IMG/VR virus record: IMGVR_UViG_3300036761_000877
Span: 1 to 42,319 of that record
Origin: a virus
Direction: 5' to 3' (one strand)
DNA: 42,319 nucleotides
Shown here: positions 10,054 through 41,193 of the stretch, piece after piece
How positions within the stretch are numbered: position 1 is the stretch's first letter
Layout: the number at the start of each line of letters is the position of its first letter
Made by a program: the position numbers and the translations under genes
Notes under the pieces: generated by a model
What the model was told of the DNA's origin: nothing
What the model saw: only the letters and a program-made list of their open reading frames with translations
Databases searched by the model: none

Positions 10054-11784
10054 TTGCGGAAATTCCTGAAGCCGTTCTTGGTTGCACTCGCGCTGTTCCC
10101 TCTGGCTACCCTCGGGCAAGCGGTAGGCTCGGGCCACATCGATATCAGTCTCAGTGACACGGCGGATACCTTCACAGCCACCGCTCCTAGCGGGACCGCG
10201 GGCGTCTCGCTGTCTCACAACGGCGCTCGGCTGGACGTCGGAGAGGGCGCCTCGGACTACTTCTCCAGCGACGGCACCACCATCACCACCCCAGGAGCTT
10301 TCGCGGCTACGGGCGGGATTACTGGGGCGGTTACTGGGAATGCCGCTACCGCTACGGCGCTGGCGGCGGACCCCACGGACTGTTCTTCAGGCGAGTACGC
10401 CACGACCATCGCGGCAAGCGGTAACCTCACCTGTGCCACCCTCTCCGGGGCCCTGGCCGGAAACGCGTCTACCGCGACGGCGCTGGCGGCGAACCCTACG
10501 GATTGCGGCGCGGGCGAGTACGCCACAACCATCGCGGCGAGCGGTAACCTCACATGCGCCACCCTCTCGGGAGCCCTGGCGGGTAATGCCAGCACCGCGA
10601 CGGCGCTGGCGGCGAACCCTACGGATTGCGGCGCGGGCGAGTACGCCACAACCATCGCGGCGAGCGGTAACCTCACGTGCGCCACCCTCTCGGGAGCCCT
10701 GGCGGGCAATGCCAGCACCGCTACGGCGCTGGCGGCGGACCCAACAGATTGCAGCGCGGGCGCGTACGCCACGACCATCGCGGCTAGCGGTAATCTCACC
10801 TGCGCTACGGTGGCTGTAGGAGAGGTCACCGGCGCCGCGCCGCTTGCAACTCCCACGTTCACCACGTCGGCCACGGTCCAAGGCTCCGCCTCTGTGAACG
10901 GGGTCACCTCCACGGCGCTGGCTACCCCCGTAAACTCGGCGTTCTCTCAGACGGATACGGGCGGCACCCTGCTCGACTCGACTACGTACTACTACCGAGT
11001 CGTGGCTACCACAGCCGCGGGCGGGGTAACCTTGCCGAGTACCGAGACCAGTCGAGCCACCAGTGGAAGTGGAGGTAACGCGCACACCGTGGTGACCAAC
11101 TGGGCCGCGGTTACCGGCGCCTACTCCTACAAGGTGTACTGCCGAGCGACCAGCGCGGAGCAACTATGTGCCACGATCGCGGCTCCTACACTGACCTGGA
11201 CGGATACAGGGGCCGTGTCCCCCTCGGGAGCCCTGCCGACTCTGAACACCACCGGGCGACTATCCGCGCCGTACTTGGTTATAGACGCCCCGGCGACGAC
11301 CTCTCCGTTTTCCGTCAAGATTAACGGTACCGCCAAATTGTCCATGGATACTGGGGGCGGCATCCTTACCGGAAGTACGGTCACCATAGGAAATGGCGTA
11401 CTCGAAGCAAATACGGCGACCCAGTTACTCCTTCGAGGAAACACCGCCGCCACCGGGGGCAGTGTGGCGATCACGAACGGCACCACCGTGACCAGCGGTA
11501 TGATCGCCACCTTCTCTCCAGACAGTAATGTGACCCCAGTTTTCGGCGTCTACTTCGACGGCTCAATACGGCTTAAGATCGTGCCTGCTCTAGCCACCTG
11601 CGCGGCCGGCATCGAAGGACTTATAACCCGGCAGAAAGGCCTCGTCTCCGGGGTCCGTACCACGCTTTGTATGTGTACCAGTGATGGTGGCGGCACACCG
11701 GCGTACGCCTGGAAGAACGTTACGGCGCTGTTCCCCAATGAAGCCGCGTCGATTGGCGACTCCACCACCTGCCCGACGCCATAA
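10054..11784 (+). CDS. Repeat-rich tail fibre / adhesin with signal peptide
   Basis: The 576-aa product starts at TTG with a strong GAGGAGG site ten bases after the tailspike stop. Residues 1-23 form a signal peptide (MRKFLK, hydrophobic core, cleavage near LGQA). Residues about 100-252 are four copies of a 41-aa repeat built on a TDC..GEYATTIAASGNLTC pattern, with two cysteines each. A fibronectin-III-like segment follows at about 270-390 (TYYYRVVATTAAGG, then YSYKVYC), then beta-rich sequence. A compact cysteine-containing tip domain ends the protein (C516, C539, C541, C573; TPAYAWKNV, NEAAS, STTCP). This tip is shared with the protein at 15513-15839. Its place after the tailspike and before the lysis genes, and its repeats, point to a receptor-binding fibre. 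Export is inferred from the signal peptide. Confidence 0.75.
   Translation: MRKFLKPFLVALALFPLATLGQAVGSGHIDISLSDTADTFTATAPSGTAGVSLSHNGARLDVGEGASDYFSSDGTTITTPGAFAATGGITGAVTGNAATATALAADPTDCSSGEYATTIAASGNLTCATLSGALAGNASTATALAANPTDCGAGEYATTIAASGNLTCATLSGALAGNASTATALAANPTDCGAGEYATTIAASGNLTCATLSGALAGNASTATALAADPTDCSAGAYATTIAASGNLTCATVAVGEVTGAAPLATPTFTTSATVQGSASVNGVTSTALATPVNSAFSQTDTGGTLLDSTTYYYRVVATTAAGGVTLPSTETSRATSGSGGNAHTVVTNWAAVTGAYSYKVYCRATSAEQLCATIAAPTLTWTDTGAVSPSGALPTLNTTGRLSAPYLVIDAPATTSPFSVKINGTAKLSMDTGGGILTGSTVTIGNGVLEANTATQLLLRGNTAATGGSVAITNGTTVTSGMIATFSPDSNVTPVFGVYFDGSIRLKIVPALATCAAGIEGLITRQKGLVSGVRTTLCMCTSDGGGTPAYAWKNVTALFPNEAASIGDSTTCPTP
10354..10809 (+). repeat. Tandem 123-bp repeats in the fibre gene
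   Basis: The unit beginning acggcgctggcggcg occurs at 10354, 10477, 10600 and 10723, exactly 123 bp apart, so each copy adds 41 codons in frame. Copies 2 and 3 are nearly identical at the base level and the outer copies are more diverged, as expected for recent internal duplication. The final copy is truncated where the sequence changes near 10809. Confidence 0.95.
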
Positions 11785-11794
11785 GGAGACTCCA

Positions 11795-12232
11795 ATGCTC
11801 AAAACAGTGCTCGCCGTACTGACTCTGCTCGTCGCGACCCCCAGTTACTCCGCTTGTGTCTGGTCCGCTACGACTACCTGGAGCGCCAAAGTAGTCTGCG
11901 ACTCCGGCACCGAAGCTGCCCCAACACTCATCACCGAAGGAATCTCCCTAGTGAATCTTCGGTCGTTGTCGATCTCCATGGTGGCTGATAGCGGCCAGAC
12001 GTTCACGGCGGCCCCCGCTGGGATGCTGTGGTTCTACGTCTGGGACGATGTCGCGGAGATGTGGATCCACTCCACAGACTTCGACCGTCGTGTGACGAAC
12101 GCTTCGGAGCGCACCCAGGGCTTCACCGGTTTGTCTATCATTGGGCCCCGTGGAGGCCGGGTAGCCGTCCGGCCTGTCGGTATTTCTTTGAGTAGTGGGA
12201 AGGTCACCGTCTACTTGAACGGCCAATCATGA
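11795..12232 (+). CDS. Small signal-peptide-bearing beta-rich protein, probable tail-tip accessory
   Basis: The 145-aa product starts at ATG 11795 after AAGGAGACTCCA; an upstream in-frame start would overlap the fibre gene and lacks this site. Residues 1-19 are a signal peptide (MLKTVLAVLTLLVA, cleavage near PSYS/A). The mature part begins with ACVWSA and has only one other cysteine (VVCDSG), which could pair with it. The rest is beta-rich, with WFYVWDD, GPRGGRVAVRPVG and a final VTVYLNGQS. The pattern resembles small beta-sandwich proteins often found near phage fibres, but I do not recognise a named family. It lies between the fibre and the lysin, overlapping the lysin start as ATGA. A structural or chaperone role is inference. 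Confidence 0.7.
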   Translation: MLKTVLAVLTLLVATPSYSACVWSATTTWSAKVVCDSGTEAAPTLITEGISLVNLRSLSISMVADSGQTFTAAPAGMLWFYVWDDVAEMWIHSTDFDRRVTNASERTQGFTGLSIIGPRGGRVAVRPVGISLSSGKVTVYLNGQS

Positions 12233-12597
12233 CCCCGATGTTTACCTACCGGCAGCGTTCCGGCGAGCTCCTACGTGAAGGGGTAGTGGTCGGCACGGGG
12301 TACTCCGGCCGCGAGCTTGGAAAGAACAACCCCAGTTTCCAAGGCGTCAAAAACACGGGCCCTATCCCTCGGGGCCTGTGGCATATCGTCGGCCCACCCT
12401 TCACCGGTCACGGTCCTTACGTGCTCAGACTGGTACCCGGGAACAACACCGAGACCTTCGATAGGTCCGGGTTCCTCATCCATGGGGACTCACTACAGAA
12501 ACCGGGTACGGCCTCCCAAGGGTGCATCGTCCTGCCCCGGCATGTCCGAGAGCTGGTGTGGGCCAGCGGCGGAAAGGAGCTGGAGGTGGTAGAATGA
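12229..12597 (+). CDS. Putative endolysin, L,D-transpeptidase/Tlde1-like (DUF2778) fold
   Basis: The 122-aa product has the L,D-transpeptidase-like active-site pattern: H85-G-D in FLIHGDS and S96-Q-G-C99 in GTASQGCIVLP. GPIPRGLW lies in the N-terminal half, as in Tlde1/DUF2778 proteins. Related proteins act on the peptide stems of peptidoglycan, some as cutting enzymes in type VI secretion toxins. Here it is the only cell-wall enzyme candidate visible and lies directly upstream of two membrane protein genes, so a lysin role is likely. It has no signal peptide and would need a holin to reach the wall. Its start overlaps the previous stop (ATGA) and its end overlaps the next start, so the three genes are translationally coupled. 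Which bond it cuts cannot be told from sequence. Confidence 0.7.
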   Translation: MTPMFTYRQRSGELLREGVVVGTGYSGRELGKNNPSFQGVKNTGPIPRGLWHIVGPPFTGHGPYVLRLVPGNNTETFDRSGFLIHGDSLQKPGTASQGCIVLPRHVRELVWASGGKELEVVE

Positions 12598-13490: not shown

Positions 13491-13517
13491 GCCCCTCCCC
13501 GGTTGCCGGGGAGGGGC
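13491..13517 (+). terminator. Strong hairpin between the convergent arms, probable terminator
   Basis: A perfect 12-bp stem, GCCCCTCCCCGG / CCGGGGAGGGGC, with a TTG loop lies 88 bases after the last rightward gene. It is followed by AGTTCTTTAT, a short U-rich tail in the rightward direction. In the leftward direction there is no U tract, so it mainly suits ending the late transcript, though so stable a stem may also slow polymerase from the other side. Confidence 0.65.
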
Positions 13518-13610: not shown

Positions 13611-13808
13611 TCATTTGGCCCCCGTAGGAGACTCGAACTTGAACTCCAATTGCACCGGCCGCCATTTCAGCGGGTTCAACACCCTGGAAATCGCCTCGGT
13701 ACCTACGTGGTACCACCGCGCAATAGCGCCTATCGGCACGCCAGCTTCATGAGCGGAGTATATCCGGCTGCACTCCGAGATCGTGAACTTCTTAGCTTTG
13801 CGGCTCAC
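13611..13808 (-). CDS. Small helix-turn-helix protein
   Basis: The 65-aa product starts at GTG 13808 with an excellent TAGGAGGT site. Residues about 14-45 fit a resolvase-type helix-turn-helix (EAGVPIGAIARWYHV, then EAISRVLN), in which the second helix would contact DNA. A short positively charged N-terminus precedes it. It is the last gene of the leftward operon and overlaps the helicase stop by four bases. A comparable HTH occurs at 23536-23856. It could regulate the arm switch or act as a small DNA-binding accessory; no target site is evident. Confidence 0.7.
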   Translation of the reverse strand: MSRKAKKFTISECSRIYSAHEAGVPIGAIARWYHVGTEAISRVLNPLKWRPVQLEFKFESPTGAK

Positions 13809-15178
13809 TTGGACCTCCTAGATGCGTACGTTTTAAGAGCGGTTAACAGATCTTTTTGTGTCCTAGATTTCTGCATCAGAGTACTAGCGATCACCTCGTC
13901 GATTGTGTTTTTGGCGATGATATCGTGGCAGACCACCGCCGCCTTCTGCCCCTGCCGGTGCACCCGCTGTATGAACTGCTCTCTGACCTCCAAGTCCCAT
14001 GTCTGGCCCGCGTTGATAATCGCGGCGGAGGTCCCTTGCAAGTTGAGCCCGTGGGCTACGGATTGCGGCTGAGCTAGCAAGACGGGGATGGCCCCTCGGT
14101 TCCATGCCTCCTCAATCGCGCGGAACTGCGTAGTAGAGACACCCCCGCCGATGTGTGGAGTGCTCGCCCCTAACCGTTCCTTGAGCCGCTCCAGGTCATG
14201 CGCGTACTCGTATGCTATCAGAGCCGGCTGCCCATTGAGCTCCTCCACCAGATCTTCTACGGCGTCCACCTTCGCGGAATGGATATGCGACCAGGTCTTC
14301 CCTCCGTCATGGTAAATCCCACCATTAGCGATCTGTCGGCATTTCATCGTAGCTACTCCGATGTTAACCGCCACAATGATGTCCTCGCGCACAGCAGTCA
14401 GTAATTGGGTCTCCATCTGTCGGTAGATCGCCAGGGCTTCTGGTGGAAGTTCTACCTCCACTTTGTTGTAGATCAACGGGGGGAGTTCCAGATAATCCCC
14501 CGCCTCCATTCGAAGCGACAACGGCCGGAGCTTTTCGTATATCAGTTCCTCGGACCCGCGCCGGGGGAGCCAGTCGTAGCCGACTTGGTCGAAGTAGTTC
14601 AGTCGGTAGTGTGTGATGTACGTCCCGAGGCTGTTACCCAGGTCTAGGATGTACACCTGCCCGAAAAGATCTAGCAGTCCGTTAGGCGCGAAGGAGCCTG
14701 TAAGGATATACCTACGGTTAAAATACGGGAGCAACGGCTTCAACACCTTAAACCGCTGCGTGTTCGTGTGTTTGAACTTGGTACTCTCGTCTACCGCCAG
14801 GATATCGAAGTGCCGGTCTCTAACCATCTTCGCCGCTTCCCGGCTGAACCATGCGAGACCCTCGGGGTTCACCAAGTAGACATCCGCATCCGACCTGAGT
14901 CGAGCGTTCTTCTTAGGACCGTGCAATACGGCCACCTTCAGGTCCTCGAAGTCCGCCCACTTGGCCACCTCACCAGGCCAAGTGGACTGCATCGGCCGGC
15001 GTGGCGCAATCACAAGCATGCGCCGCGCCATGCCGAGTTTACGTAGGAGCTTGAACGCCGCGAGCATGATGCTCGTCTTGCCCAGCCCGGGGTCAAGCAG
15101 TAGAGCCATACAGGACGAGGAAATAACGTGCTTGATCGCGCGCTTCTGGTATCCGTGTGGCTTGTAAGGCAGGCTCAC
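13805..15178 (-). CDS. SNF2-family DNA helicase/translocase
   Basis: The 457-aa product has superfamily 2 SNF2-type motifs. Motif Q/I is HGYQKRAI followed by DPGLGKT (29-35), motif II is D130-E-S-T, motif III-like is LTGSFAPN, and motif VI is QRVHRQGQ (404-411). I chose GTG 15178, which overlaps the stop of the VRR-NUC gene as GTGA and has AGGG upstream; a longer start reads back into that gene. Such ATP-driven dsDNA translocases are common in phage replication or recombination modules next to VRR-NUC nucleases. The pair probably acts together on branched DNA, a known association for these families. Confidence 0.9.
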   Translation of the reverse strand: MSLPYKPHGYQKRAIKHVISSSCMALLLDPGLGKTSIMLAAFKLLRKLGMARRMLVIAPRRPMQSTWPGEVAKWADFEDLKVAVLHGPKKNARLRSDADVYLVNPEGLAWFSREAAKMVRDRHFDILAVDESTKFKHTNTQRFKVLKPLLPYFNRRYILTGSFAPNGLLDLFGQVYILDLGNSLGTYITHYRLNYFDQVGYDWLPRRGSEELIYEKLRPLSLRMEAGDYLELPPLIYNKVEVELPPEALAIYRQMETQLLTAVREDIIVAVNIGVATMKCRQIANGGIYHDGGKTWSHIHSAKVDAVEDLVEELNGQPALIAYEYAHDLERLKERLGASTPHIGGGVSTTQFRAIEEAWNRGAIPVLLAQPQSVAHGLNLQGTSAAIINAGQTWDLEVREQFIQRVHRQGQKAAVVCHDIIAKNTIDEVIASTLMQKSRTQKDLLTALKTYASRRSK

Positions 15179-15501
15179 AAGTAGAACCCTAGGGCCGCGT
15201 CGACCAGGCGCTTGCCCACCTCGATGTTGTCGCACACCTCGCAAGTCACCCCCGCGGATTGCAGCTGCACGAACCTGTTTGCTTGCAAGGCAGTCAGGGG
15301 CTTACCCGGAGCCTTGAACTCCAACATGAGCACGGAGGTGGCCCCCCAGCGCTGCGCGAAGATCTCATAGTCAGGCCACCCATTCGTGCCATACCGACCC
15401 CCTTGAACCTTGCGGTAGACGCACTTCACATCGGGGTGCTCGACCAACTGTCGCTTCAGGTACTCTATTACCGCGGTCTGAATTTTCTTTTCGGGGCCCA
15501 T
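15175..15501 (-). CDS. VRR-NUC domain nuclease
   Basis: The 108-aa product is a stand-alone VRR-NUC (PD-(D/E)XK superfamily) nuclease: E4 in the first helix, YRKVQGGRYGTNGWPD with D44, then LMLEFKAPG with E61 and K63, and the trailing LTALQANRFVQLQSAGV helix with Q73. The start at ATG 15501 has AAGGA seven bases upstream; an upstream in-frame ATG (15528) lacks a site. Single-domain members of this family resolve branched DNA such as Holliday junctions. It sits upstream of and overlaps the SNF2 helicase, the usual phage pairing. All expected catalytic residues are visible. Confidence 0.92.
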   Translation of the reverse strand: MGPEKKIQTAVIEYLKRQLVEHPDVKCVYRKVQGGRYGTNGWPDYEIFAQRWGATSVLMLEFKAPGKPLTALQANRFVQLQSAGVTCEVCDNIEVGKRLVDAALGFYL

Positions 15502-15512
15502 ACTGTAGATCC

Positions 15513-15839
15513 TTATAGAGCAGGACAAGTGGTGCTAGTGCCTACGGATGCCGCTTCATTAGAGAACCCCGCGGCGACGTTCTTCCAGGCGTACACTGGC
15601 GTGCTCCTTCCGTCACTGACGTGGCTGCACACGCACTGCATGGCCCAAGTCGAGTACCTCCCCCCTTCAGTACCGACTTCACAGATGCCTACCGCGTGGT
15701 CTCTCTTCTTTAGAAACTCCGATTCCGCGCCTTTTTCTGGAAGCTCCGACCCCGCGCCCGCCCAGATTGAGACTAGTATTACTGCTAGTGTTACTATTAG
15801 GGCTCGGTTTAGCCCCCCGGTGGTCCTTAATACGGGCAT
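15513..15839 (-). CDS. Membrane-anchored fibre-tip-domain paralogue
   Basis: The 108-aa product starts at ATG 15839, inside the last codons of the nuclease gene, so it is probably coupled to it (weak GGTGG site). Residues about 11-29 (NRALIVTLAVILVSIWAG) are a signal anchor or uncleaved signal peptide. Residues 53-108 match the tip domain of the 576-aa fibre: CEVGTEG against CAAGIEG, a C-x-C pair (C69, C71), TPVYAWKNV against TPAYAWKNV, NEAAS, and STTCP near the end. In the last 29 residues 21 are identical, and 18 bases are identical at 15577-15594 and 11703-11720. The gene lies among DNA-metabolism genes, so expression is likely earlier than the fibre. I infer an exported protein that shows a fibre-tip domain in the periplasm or envelope; receptor masking is one possibility. 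Confidence 0.7.
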   Translation of the reverse strand: MPVLRTTGGLNRALIVTLAVILVSIWAGAGSELPEKGAESEFLKKRDHAVGICEVGTEGGRYSTWAMQCVCSHVSDGRSTPVYAWKNVAAGFSNEAASVGTSTTCPAL

Positions 15840-16633
15840 GGTCCACCGGCACCCTTTGCGTACGCGCACCACCGGCACTTCGGGTTGCTCTTCGGCAGGA
15901 AGGACGTGTCGTTGAGCATGGCGGCGGTCTTGTTCTCCCACACCCGCTTCTCGGCCTCAACGCCATCTCTTGCGAGGTCGCACTCCGGCCGGGAAACCAC
16001 AGGGTCCAGGTCCGAAGCGCAGTCCGTGAAGACCAGCTGTGCCGTGGCCTTCTTCAACGTGGGGAACGCGCACAGGGCCGCGAGTGTATACAGTCGGAGC
16101 TGCCCGTCGTACTTCTCATCTGCCTTGATGGCTCCGGTGTTCTTGTCCACCCCGCCCGTCTTCCAGTCGATCACCAGCGCGGAGGAGGCTGTCTTCTGGT
16201 GGTATACGTCGAGCTTCGCCCGGCACCACACGCGCGGGGAGAACCTATCCCCAAGAATACTCCAGGAGGAATCGAAGTTAAGCGCGAGTTCCACCTTGAC
16301 TCGGCGCTTGTCGGCCGCTTTACGCAGGTCCGCCGCCAACTTCAGTACTACCGGATGCTTCACCTCTGGGTGGACTACTGGGGACACCCCCAACACGTAT
16401 CGCTCCAGGCTTAGGCCGATAGCGCTCCCCCGGGCGAGAGGTGCCGCGAGATCGATAACCGACTTACAGGTGCCGCAAACCTCGGGGCGGTCGTACCCAC
16501 CCGTCAGTCGGCCCTTAAAACAGCGGGGGCATAACTTCGTAATGGCTTTGTACTTCGCGAATGCGGGGCAGGTCGCGTAATCCGATAACCTCGACGGACT
16601 CCAAGCTGTGAACTTCGTAGGTTCTGGGCGCAT
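15827..16633 (-). CDS. Cas4/RecB-like PD-(D/E)XK nuclease with Fe-S cysteines
   Basis: The 268-aa product has the RecB-type nuclease core: D142 (AKLDVY), D156-W-K158 (VIDWKTG) and Q178 (GQLRLY). C22 near the N-terminus with C253, C256 and C266 near the C-terminus gives the iron-sulfur cysteine arrangement known from AddB and Cas4. A zinc-ribbon-like insert, C35-x2-C38 ... C53-x2-C56, follows the first cysteine. The start at ATG 16633 shares one base with the polymerase stop (TGATG) and has AAGGAGAAGG upstream. It probably processes DNA ends in replication or recombination, as in many phages where this gene follows the polymerase. There is no CRISPR array here, so no adaptation role is suggested. 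Confidence 0.85.
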   Translation of the reverse strand: MRPEPTKFTAWSPSRLSDYATCPAFAKYKAITKLCPRCFKGRLTGGYDRPEVCGTCKSVIDLAAPLARGSAIGLSLERYVLGVSPVVHPEVKHPVVLKLAADLRKAADKRRVKVELALNFDSSWSILGDRFSPRVWCRAKLDVYHQKTASSALVIDWKTGGVDKNTGAIKADEKYDGQLRLYTLAALCAFPTLKKATAQLVFTDCASDLDPVVSRPECDLARDGVEAEKRVWENKTAAMLNDTSFLPKSNPKCRWCAYAKGAGGPCPY

Positions 16634-18477
16634 CAAGCCTTCTCCTTTTCTAGCTGGCCCCAAGACGGGCCGTACTTCGCATCAGTTAACATCGGGATAT
16701 CAAACTCCACAGACTCCATCGCTTCTCGTAGCCGCTCGCTCTCCGCCTTCGCCGACTGTTTGGGAACCGATAAGTTGATCTCGTCATGTACCGTGACGAG
16801 CATCCGACCAGTCTTTCGTAGAGCGTGCCAGCGGATAATCGCCTCCTTAGTGCAATCCGCCGCGGAGCCTTGAATCAGGGTGTTCAAAAGCCGGTACTCA
16901 AATGACACCAGCCGGTCGTATTTCTTCGAGTACGCCGCTGGTTCACAGAAGTATTCTCTGCCACCCCAAGTGCGTAGAGGTTTCCCGGTCTTCCCTCGGT
17001 ACTTGAGTTCTGCTTGGAGCTCCGCGACACCAGGTGCCGCGAGCTTCGCGGCCTCGCGTAACTCCTTGGCTACAGAGATCTCTACGTGCGCCATCTCCGC
17101 GAGTTTCGGGATTCCCGTTCCGTAGCAAATGGCGAAGTTAATCGCCTTGACGAGCCGCCGAGAGTACTCCGTACCACAGATATCTTTGATCCTCGCCTGC
17201 ATCAGATTGTGGTAGTCGATCCGGGGGTTGCTCAGGTAGGACTGTCTCAGTGCCCCGTCCTCGTAGTGGGCCAGTATGCGGAATTCCTGCTGGTTGTAGT
17301 CTCGATGCACGAATACTTCACCCACATCTGGGAGCAAATAATCTCGAACAAGTGGGAGCTCGGGGACTTTGAGCGCTTGGGGGTGCTCGTATCCGTCGCC
17401 CTTATCCAAAAAGTCCTTGGAGATATTTTGGAACCTTGAGCACGACAACCGCCCAGTGCGCGCACCACAGCTGTCCCCGGTATCTCGCTGGCGTTTCACC
17501 TGGTTCCACTCGGTGTAGACTAGGCCACCATTCGCCCGGGCCATTTCCAACCACGGCTTCAAGTTCAACGACAACACCGTTTGGAGCCGGCCTCTATACC
17601 CCAGCACGCGGAAAACTTCCTGGTCCGAGAACCTCTCAGCCTTCAAGTTCTTCCGAGCCATTGACTTCTGTGGCGCGCGTCTCTCCCCGCCAGCCGTCCA
17701 CGCCCACGAGGTCACAACCCCAGCGCTGTTCAGAGCTTCCGCCACCTGTGCGTCCGCGTCCAGGTTCAGCCCTGGGGCTTTGAGCCGTTCTCGTAGCCAG
17801 TTATCCGCCAGGAGACTGGCCTGTTCGTACAAGGGCACTTGGATCTCAGCCTTAGCCACATCAAACCGGATGCCGCGCCGCTCGTTGTCCAACAAGAGGG
17901 GCATAAGTTTGCGTTCCCGGTCGTACGCCGGGCCGGCTGTGCGCTTTACTAGGTGCTTGTACAGCTTCCATGCACGCACGACATCACCAACCGCGTACTT
18001 GCCCACCAACCCCCCGGGTGCCTGGCAGATGTTTGCCCCCGCGGCCTTCTCGCCCCGGATGCCCATATGGTCCGCGAGCCATGCTGCTACAGCATCGCGT
18101 TCGTCAGGCTTCAGTCCTAGAAGTCGCTCCGCACTCGGCTTCAGGGCCAGCGTGTCGGAGTTAGGGTCATGTAGAAACAGCATGTACATCGAATCGTGTA
18201 CTCGGTCCCAGCGCGGCATAGGGAGCTCGAAATGAGTCTCTGCCACATCAAGATCGAACTTCGCGTGGTGGAAAAGTAATTGGTCGTTCCCAGCCCAGAT
18301 CTTTTCGAGAAGCTCCCGTGCAGCCCCCTCGGTGCTGTTGTTCTCTGTAGGATGCCCCCACGCGTAGTATTTGGGGCGTCCACCCGGTAGTTGCACCGCT
18401 ACCCCCACAGGCTTAGGCGGATACGCCGGGCGAGCTTCGATCCCCTTGGTCTCAAAATCGAGTACGACTATACCCAT
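16633..18477 (-). CDS. Family A DNA polymerase
   Basis: The 614-aa replicative polymerase has a 3'-5' proofreading domain (VLDFETKG with D7/E9; FHHAKFDLD with D75; YAVGDVV with D165) and a complete polymerase domain. Motif A is HRDYNQQEFRI (D393), motif B is RRLVKAINFAICYG (R440, K444, F448, Y452) and motif C is VTVHDEI (H564, D565, E566). Phe rather than Tyr at the nucleotide-selection position (F448) is the E. coli Pol I-like state. No 5'-3' exonuclease domain is present. The start at ATG 18477 has only a weak GGGGT site. It lies between the SSB-like and nuclease genes. Confidence 0.97.
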   Translation of the reverse strand: MGIVVLDFETKGIEARPAYPPKPVGVAVQLPGGRPKYYAWGHPTENNSTEGAARELLEKIWAGNDQLLFHHAKFDLDVAETHFELPMPRWDRVHDSMYMLFLHDPNSDTLALKPSAERLLGLKPDERDAVAAWLADHMGIRGEKAAGANICQAPGGLVGKYAVGDVVRAWKLYKHLVKRTAGPAYDRERKLMPLLLDNERRGIRFDVAKAEIQVPLYEQASLLADNWLRERLKAPGLNLDADAQVAEALNSAGVVTSWAWTAGGERRAPQKSMARKNLKAERFSDQEVFRVLGYRGRLQTVLSLNLKPWLEMARANGGLVYTEWNQVKRQRDTGDSCGARTGRLSCSRFQNISKDFLDKGDGYEHPQALKVPELPLVRDYLLPDVGEVFVHRDYNQQEFRILAHYEDGALRQSYLSNPRIDYHNLMQARIKDICGTEYSRRLVKAINFAICYGTGIPKLAEMAHVEISVAKELREAAKLAAPGVAELQAELKYRGKTGKPLRTWGGREYFCEPAAYSKKYDRLVSFEYRLLNTLIQGSAADCTKEAIIRWHALRKTGRMLVTVHDEINLSVPKQSAKAESERLREAMESVEFDIPMLTDAKYGPSWGQLEKEKA

Positions 18478-38619: not shown

Positions 38620-41193
38620 ATGCCTACTGTCAGGCAGCGAACCTTCGCGGGCGGGGAACTAGCCCCCACACTGCATGGTAGAGACGACCTAGCGAGGTAC
38701 TCGAATTCGCTTCGTACATGCAAGAACATGGTAGTCACACCCCACGGAGCGTTGCAGAATCGAACGGGAACGGTCTTCGTAGTAGAGACGAAGGGATCTG
38801 GAGCGGTTCGTCTAAAAGAGTTTGTGTACTCTAATAGCTCGGTTTTCCTGCTGGCCTTTAGCCACCAACATGTTCGAGTTTATCGGCTAGGAGTGCAGGT
38901 GGCGGGTTACGCAACACCGTATCTGGTGGCGGACCTTAGTCTACTGAAATTCGCACAGCGCGGGGCGGTTCTTTCGATTACTTGTACGGGGTACGAACCA
39001 CGGGACTTCACGTTATTGAACGCGTCAGGGACCCGTTGGTCGCTTACAGCCACACCTAGAGGCCCGTATTTGTCTTATCCTGTTGGTCCTGTGACGGTGT
39101 GGCTTGATAACTGGGTCGCCGCGTGGGCGACAGACGGTATCCCGAAGTTATGGAGTTTCGGAGTCACCGCAGTCTACGCGGACGGGTCCGAGTCGCTGCT
39201 GCTTGCTACGAACGAAGTACTACTCGACCGGATAGAATACTCCGCGAGTGTAAAATGGGTCTCGGTTGGTATCCCAGCTACTCGGTTTAACATCTACCTC
39301 GGCCGGGGTGGTTTGTGGGGGTTTTTGGACTCGGTAGCGGCGAAGCCGGGGACGTTTTCGTACCAGTCATATCAGGACACGACAGGGGCGCAGGATACCC
39401 AGAACAAGGTGCAGGCGGCGCCGAGTGGTGGGATTTCGGGTAATCTCGGGGTGGGGATTCTGACGCCAATAGCAGTGCAGAACGCGGTGAACCCACCCGA
39501 TTTTTCTACGACACCTCCGACAGGTGAGCGTCCGTACAAGACCGTACCGACTGCCTGGTTATCGCATAACAGGTACGAATTGGGTGATCGGGTAACCGCT
39601 GGCGGGTACACGTACGAGTGCCGAGTAGCTGGGTTCTCGGGGTTAACTGCACCAACAGTTATGGTAGGGTCTCAGACAGATGGCGCGCTGTACAGAGCGC
39701 CGAGTACTGCCTATGTTCTTGGGGATCTCATCTGTAATGATGGGTGGACCTGGATGTGCGCACAGGCGGGAACATCGAGCGCGGATTTGTACCATCCTAC
39801 AGCGAAAACGGCGACCGATGGCGGTGCGATGTGGGCGATGCACGGGTACGGTGGGCAAGTAACGTGGAAGGTGGTTCAGCTGGGAGTGGCGCCCGCGGAA
39901 TATCCCGCGGTGAACGCGTACTACGAACAACGCCGGATTTACGCAGGTGGGGTGGCATGTATCGACCAGCCAGCTGGGGCGAGTAGACTTCGCGGTTCTA
40001 GGATCGGAGCTTACAATGACTTCGATGTGAACCAGGTCGTGCAGGGTGATGATTCTCTTGACTTCTGGGCTTCTTCTAGAACGTATGAAGAGGTGCGTAG
40101 TCTACTGCCTTTAGGCAGTCTAGTTGTGTTCACAAATAGCACGGTCTGGTCGGTCAGTGCTGGGTCGGGGGCTGACGGGGCGCTCACGCCGTTCAGCATC
40201 CGTATGCGGCCGCAGTTATCGATTGGCAGTTCTTGGCTCGATCCTTTGGTAGTTGGGTCCGTGGCGTTGTTTCTACAAGACAACGGCCGCGTAGTTCATG
40301 CTTTGCAGTTCAACCCAGAGGCAGACAACTTCAAGGAGTCTGTGGTTTCAGTCTGGGCTACGCATTTACTGGAGTATCGTACGGTCATCGACTGGGCCTA
40401 CGCGAAGCAACCGTCAGGTGTAGTCTGGGCCGTAGGGAGTGATGGGGCTCTACTGGGGCTGACCTTCCTACCAGAATTCGAAGTAGCTGCATGGCACCAG
40501 CATGATACAGACGGTGTAATCGAGAATGTCTGTACGGTTCCAGAGAACGGAGAGGACACGGTCTACGTGGTAGCGCGTAGAACGGTCGGTGGGGTAGCCC
40601 GTAGGTACATTGAGAAGCTGAGTACTCGGCGTACAACACGCTTACCAACAGGAGCCGTAGATGCACGAATGTGGGTATTCTTGGACGCCTCCGTCCAGCT
40701 CGTGAGCAGTTCGAAGGTTACGGTTTTGACTGGGCTGGGGCATCTTGAGGGGAAGTCCGTAGGAGTACTGGCGGACGGTAACGTACTCACCCCCAGGATC
40801 GTAGTGTCTGGGCAGATTAGCATCATCGACGAGATGCCGGACGGCGCGAATATTATTACGGCCGGGCTTCCATTTACGTCTGTGGTAGAAACCTTAGATG
40901 CTACGTCTTCGGAAGTAGAACTGCGCACAAGAAAGAAGGCTGTTACGGAAGTAGGATTAGAAGTTCTAGATACCCGAGGAGTGGAGGTGGGCACGTCCTT
41001 AACTGGACTGCGCGCGTATAAACAACGGCAGGTGATGGATTCTTACGGCGCGGTAGCGACCTACAGCGGGCTTCTGAAAATATCCCTGGGGACGAGTTTT
41101 GACTACCCGAGCAGTATTGTTGTCCGACAGTCTGACCCACTATCACTCACTGTTCTGAGCATCTCAAGGGAGATAAACTTTGGTGCAGATTAG
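38620..41193 (+). CDS. Tail nozzle (T7 gp12-like tubular protein B)
   Basis: The 857-aa product has the nozzle opening: RQRTFAGGELAPTLHGRDDL, then YSNSLRTCKNMVVTPHGALQ and NRTGTVFV. Beta-propeller-like repeats follow, with LGVAPAEYPAVNAYYEQRRI, then YAGGV and GAYNDFDV, then LPLGSLVVFTNSTVW. Six copies form the nozzle at the end of the short tail in T7-like phages, and the receptor-binding proteins attach near it. ATG follows the adaptor TAG directly. Ends ten bases inside the next gene. Confidence 0.9.
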   Translation: MPTVRQRTFAGGELAPTLHGRDDLARYSNSLRTCKNMVVTPHGALQNRTGTVFVVETKGSGAVRLKEFVYSNSSVFLLAFSHQHVRVYRLGVQVAGYATPYLVADLSLLKFAQRGAVLSITCTGYEPRDFTLLNASGTRWSLTATPRGPYLSYPVGPVTVWLDNWVAAWATDGIPKLWSFGVTAVYADGSESLLLATNEVLLDRIEYSASVKWVSVGIPATRFNIYLGRGGLWGFLDSVAAKPGTFSYQSYQDTTGAQDTQNKVQAAPSGGISGNLGVGILTPIAVQNAVNPPDFSTTPPTGERPYKTVPTAWLSHNRYELGDRVTAGGYTYECRVAGFSGLTAPTVMVGSQTDGALYRAPSTAYVLGDLICNDGWTWMCAQAGTSSADLYHPTAKTATDGGAMWAMHGYGGQVTWKVVQLGVAPAEYPAVNAYYEQRRIYAGGVACIDQPAGASRLRGSRIGAYNDFDVNQVVQGDDSLDFWASSRTYEEVRSLLPLGSLVVFTNSTVWSVSAGSGADGALTPFSIRMRPQLSIGSSWLDPLVVGSVALFLQDNGRVVHALQFNPEADNFKESVVSVWATHLLEYRTVIDWAYAKQPSGVVWAVGSDGALLGLTFLPEFEVAAWHQHDTDGVIENVCTVPENGEDTVYVVARRTVGGVARRYIEKLSTRRTTRLPTGAVDARMWVFLDASVQLVSSSKVTVLTGLGHLEGKSVGVLADGNVLTPRIVVSGQISIIDEMPDGANIITAGLPFTSVVETLDATSSEVELRTRKKAVTEVGLEVLDTRGVEVGTSLTGLRAYKQRQVMDSYGAVATYSGLLKISLGTSFDYPSSIVVRQSDPLSLTVLSISREINFGAD

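Follow-up and report, generated by a model that had tools for sequence, protein, structure and literature searches.

Why would a phage encode, among its replication genes, a short protein that ends like its own fibre? The question is raised by a 108-aa open reading frame (ORF) in the window, by which we mean the entire IMG/VR record IMGVR_UViG_3300036761_000877, 42,319 bases in length. A sequence-only reading had seen in this ORF a membrane-anchored copy of the fibre tip, which could occupy the receptor from the envelope of the infected cell and block further phages. The ORF and its surroundings in the leftward arm are as follows.

15513..15839, minus strand: 108-aa ORF with a signal peptide or signal anchor, a short linker and a C-terminal tip-like domain
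15750..15839, minus strand: its signal sequence, residues 1-30, with R5, R12, a hydrophobic stretch at 13-26 and a possible AxA cleavage site at 27-29 (hydrophobicity scan and sequence reading)
15516..15641, minus strand: its securely homologous tip part, residues 67-108 (profile match 67-106)
15827..16663, minus strand: PD-(D/E)XK (RecB/Cas4-like) exonuclease, upstream neighbour with a 13-nt overlap
15175..15501, minus strand: VRR-NUC endonuclease, downstream neighbour
13805..15244, minus strand: SNF2-type helicase, last gene of the leftward arm
13491..13517, plus strand: strong terminator-like hairpin between the two converging arms

The ORF is read from an ATG on the minus strand (15839..15513). 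It begins inside the 3' end of the exonuclease gene, and its stop codon overlaps an AAGGAT ribosome-site-like motif of the VRR-NUC gene. We regard the gene as real. It fits between its neighbours through these overlaps, and its translation is probably coupled to that of the exonuclease gene; the region yielded no promoter-like site. It also lies where the sequence-only reading had placed it, within the leftward arm, which extends from ~29 kb to 13.8 kb and includes genes for a primase, DNA polymerase A, the PD-(D/E)XK exonuclease, the VRR-NUC nuclease and the SNF2 helicase. The rightward arm holds packaging and structural genes, with a portal ~41% identical to that of phiV10-like podoviruses. 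The codon adaptation index of the 108-aa ORF (0.62) is below that of the main phage genes (0.65-0.77), and the whole 108-aa protein has no homologue in annotated phages or IMG/VR.

We then compared the slot between the exonuclease and VRR-NUC genes in relatives. AXL_3 carries a 75-aa ORF there, a homologue of which is found in PW916, whereas L003 carries another small ORF and L031 an HNH-like gene plus a 60-aa ORF with a single transmembrane segment. Since relatives hold unrelated small ORFs at this position, the slot has the appearance of an accessory-gene site. The N-terminus of the 108-aa protein showed no relation above shuffles to the slot ORFs of AXL_3, L003 or L031. As a separate observation, the HNH-like gene of L031 (L031:546-1155, with the small membrane ORF following) has an exonuclease-like C-terminus (QCKF).

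The long protein to which the short one was compared is encoded in the rightward arm, together with a small neighbour.

10054..11784, plus strand: 576-aa fibre-like protein with a signal-peptide-like N-terminus, ~41-residue repeats with Cys pairs and a tip at ~511-576
11590..11781, plus strand: tip domain of the 576-aa protein
11795..12232, plus strand: 145-aa protein with a signal-peptide-like N-terminus, a homologue of which lies directly 3' of the tip gene in L018 (36% identity over 120 residues)

The resemblance between the two C-termini is strong. BLASTP of the 108-aa C-terminus against the end of the 576-aa protein gave 26 identities in 38 positions (E=2e-14), and the local alignment score of the two tips was 139, whereas 2000 shuffles reached no more than 60. 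Over the final 29 residues of the 108-aa protein 21 are identical, exactly as had been counted from the sequence, and this is far above shuffles. The originally described 56-residue match held over the last ~40 residues and became weak upstream of them: a profile built from the other five tips aligns residues 67-106 only, while the tip model match (G000:15522-15686, E=2e-25) comes from a model that was itself built with the 108-aa copy included. Upstream of the secure part, the two proteins have in common a short motif around the first Cys (GICEVGTEG versus ATCAAGIEG), whose score is reached by 1.1% of shuffles. The short tip is also incomplete between the first and second Cys, being ~10 residues shorter before the secure part, and it has two extra residues inserted after Cys71. 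We considered whether a frameshift could explain the missing part and rejected this: frame +1 has GGGTR near the CxxC, but no profile score there. AlphaFold2 models of both tips had low confidence, with a mean pLDDT of ~55 each.

Tips resembling the one in the 576-aa protein also occur in four other records, namely in Mx8 p66 and in proteins of L005 (248 aa), L013 (877 aa) and L018 (179 aa). Across these five phages and the 108-aa copy, 11 tip columns are invariant (Cys, Cys-x-Cys, Asp, Pro, Tyr, Trp, Asn, Gly, Thr and Cys), and the 108-aa protein keeps all 11. Four of them are Cys, so the four matching cysteines noted earlier are all retained, although the stretch with the first is weakly supported. 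Proteins of the Mx8 p66 type thus share with the 108-aa protein a signal-peptide-like start and a tip with the 11 invariant residues; unlike it, they are encoded among head, tail or late genes, their tip is preceded by a shaft or larger body, and each record has just one of them. The 108-aa gene departs from this setting, lying in the leftward arm between the exonuclease and VRR-NUC genes. The window alone has two tips, and because a second copy was absent from every other record searched, the idea that related phages always carry matching pairs was not borne out. L003 and L031, which are relatives by replication genes, have no tip (L031 being a fragment), and tip scans of GTDB genomes (84,980 species) yielded no confirmed or exact match. 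Pattern matches in L006, L007, L009 and L011 were discarded as unrelated short frames, and that in L008 as a large unrelated protein.

Several neighbouring proteins were recorded in passing. Directly after the 248-aa tip protein, L005 encodes a protein of 131 aa that carries a signal peptide and ends in a diverged Cys/YAW sequence (L005:10596-10991); its N-terminal region resembles that of a 676-aa protein in L018. A signal-peptide-bearing protein beside the tip gene of L013 (L013:10248-10727) looks by eye like secreted proteins of the spore coat protein U type.

A resemblance of this kind could be a recent accident: illegitimate recombination would have placed a copy of the 3' end of a fibre gene behind an ORF for a small membrane protein in a variable slot, and the product would have little or no selected role. 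At the DNA level the final 110 bases of the two tips are about three quarters identical, and the similarity continues through the stop codon and the following GGA, as such a copying event would leave it. The poor codon usage of the ORF, its restriction to the window genome among the records searched and the small single-TM ORF in the L031 slot (not detectably homologous to the 108-aa N-terminus) are in line with the same view. The pattern of substitution points the other way. Over 34 tip codons, the two copies differ at 9 first, 5 second and 17 third positions, giving dN 0.22 and dS 1.40 (dN/dS ~0.16; bootstrap 95% range 0.04-0.44), whereas free drift of the 108-aa copy since duplication would be expected to give a dN/dS of 0.5 or more, a value reached by only 0.6% of bootstraps. 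Amino-acid differences favour family-variable positions, with 1 of 8 at conserved columns (P=0.011). The low ratio argues against simple decay of the copy, and together with the invariant residues and the tidy gene overlaps it makes a chance fusion rather unlikely in our judgement, if still a serious candidate. On the codon comparison, these values argue for a constrained protein, unless the two sequences diverged as functional fibres before the phage acquired the copy.

The next question is where the two proteins go. Export signals and cleavage were judged by eye and hydrophobicity scan only. By these means the N-terminus of the 108-aa protein is hydrophobic (mean Kyte-Doolittle value of 3.05 over 13 residues) and has the signal-peptide-like form typical of the tip family; it is possible that it acts as an uncleaved anchor, or that it is cleaved at AGA29/GS. 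Similar starts were found in the 576-aa protein (MRKFLKPFLVALALFPLATLGQA), in the 145-aa protein just downstream of it and in the tip proteins of Mx8, L005, L013 and L018. The proposal that a signal anchor replaces the fibre shaft therefore survives in part: a hydrophobic N-terminus is present and a shaft is missing, but the implied contrast with a non-exported fibre fails, since the 576-aa protein begins with such a signal too and the export signal does not set the short copy apart. Given this start, the same start in its tip relatives and its even, paired cysteines, the 576-aa protein is probably exported as well, and its status as a virion fibre is only putative. The same holds for the tip as a virion receptor-binding tip, as the "fibre" and all tip relatives look Sec-exported.

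Within the 576-aa protein, four ~41-residue repeats span residues ~105-260 with a Cys pair in each (ATALAANPTDCGAGEYATTIAASGNLTCATLSGALAGNAST), and related repeats occur in an 800-aa ORF of L004, whose likely start has the shape of a signal peptide. The two signal-peptide-bearing genes are followed immediately, close to where the rightward arm ends, by a gene for a Tlde1 / YkuD-like domain protein (12229-12597, plus strand; Pfam PF10908, E=1e-11; PHROG of unknown function). Elsewhere on the plus strand, 38620-41193 encodes a tail-tube-like protein with a possible carbohydrate-binding module, CBM_5_12, at residues 312-340, below the Pfam cut-off.

The hydrophobic N-termini might instead be virion attachment segments, in which case the 576-aa protein would be a tail fibre of the ordinary kind and the 108-aa protein either a minor component of the virion or a cytoplasmic protein. 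The 576-aa gene does come after a gene for a tailspike-like product with an N-terminus matching tail fibre/spike families, and its relatives sit among head, tail or late genes. We nevertheless hold this to be distinctly unlikely, because a basic start, a hydrophobic core and small -3/-1 residues recur in the unrelated N-termini of several neighbouring genes, and because cysteines are mostly even in number (4, 14 and 2 in the 108-aa, 576-aa and 145-aa proteins) and paired inside repeats, as in oxidised exported proteins, while the 616-aa and 1931-aa products have 0 and 1.

The anatomy of the locus can then be described with some assurance. Very probably, the 108-aa protein is exported, lacks a shaft and is a paralogue of a fibre-like protein that was itself already exported, its gene having moved into a variable slot. 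The sequence supports the earlier view that a tip-like domain is targeted to the envelope from the leftward arm. What such a protein would do is a matter of lower confidence. In a Gram-negative cell, a protein with a Sec signal but no lipobox ends up in the inner membrane or periplasm and does not reach the outer surface. The 108-aa protein has no lipobox Cys after its signal; its cysteines are residues 53, 69, 71 and 105. Judging from gene position, it would be made earlier than the 576-aa protein; it would be exported to the inner membrane or periplasm, its cysteines would pair there, and its tip would bind an envelope ligand shared with the long protein. Such a protein would most likely serve to alter the envelope of the infected cell, making it harder for phages of the same kind to adsorb or enter, an exclusion acting from inside the envelope.

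The comparison with T5 Llp, on which the receptor-blocking idea had leaned, does not carry over. Llp, a lipoprotein of the periplasm, jams FhuA allosterically, acting on its periplasmic face. Its gene adjoins the receptor-binding gene and did not arise as a copy of it; Llp and Cor each contain a disulphide (PMC9586334). The 108-aa protein is like Llp and Cor in being small, phage-encoded and sent to the cell envelope, and it too has cysteines. Unlike Llp, it lacks a lipobox, is a copy of the tip and is encoded ~3.7 kb from the fibre gene on the opposite strand; in addition, a fibre tip normally binds the outer face of its receptor, out of reach for a periplasmic protein. Lacking a lipobox and being a tip copy, the protein is unrelated to Llp and would need a different way of working, and a direct equivalent of Llp, blocking the outer-membrane receptor of the window phage, is very unlikely.

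The shared tip and shared predicted compartment also suggest an effect on assembly, with the short tip joining the 576-aa tip in mixed oligomers in the periplasm as a chaperone, cap or dominant negative and not acting on a receptor. We consider this unlikely: the genes lie in opposite arms, with different expected timing; tip oligomerisation is putative; and other phages with the long protein have no short copy.

An exclusion function for the 108-aa protein is accordingly offered as a tentative suggestion, and we are just as guarded about the joint statement that a shaft-less exported paralogue changes the envelope to give superinfection exclusion. Against the joint explanation we count the ~10 missing tip residues, the poorer codon usage, the lack of a second copy in the other phages searched and of a promoter-like site, the fact that a Sec signal alone does not carry the protein to the cell surface, and the low dN/dS, which could stem from two functional fibres before the copy was acquired. 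To block superinfection from the inner membrane or periplasm would need a receptor reachable from inside, for example pilin before assembly. AXL_3 uses a type IV pilus (PMC7504290); it is a distant relative by replication genes, and the structural genes of the window phage are of another type. That an early exported, shaft-less adhesin-tip copy occupies the phage's receptor from inside the envelope, e.g. on pilins before assembly, with exclusion matching the phage's own receptor specificity, is improbable on present grounds. We conclude that the 108-aa gene is a real accessory gene whose function is weakly supported.

Phage-encoded exported proteins that are not virion parts are familiar from lambda, where Lom is an outer-membrane protein, with lom among the tail genes, and Bor is a lipoprotein. 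To our knowledge, neither is related in sequence to the 108-aa protein. Among the titles and abstracts listed in searches of the open-access literature, none describes an exported copy of a phage's own fibre tip. If the 108-aa protein does block adsorption, it would represent exclusion built directly from the phage's own adhesin, with a specificity that tracks receptor specificity. A more useful lead than the 108-aa gene itself may lie in the wider observation that phages have a rare family of exported fibre-like proteins. This small family combines an export signal, fibre-like repeats and a cysteine tip, raising the question of why fibre-like phage proteins should be exported by Sec, and export signals in fibre-like proteins call into question whether such genes, when annotated as tail fibres, encode virion proteins.
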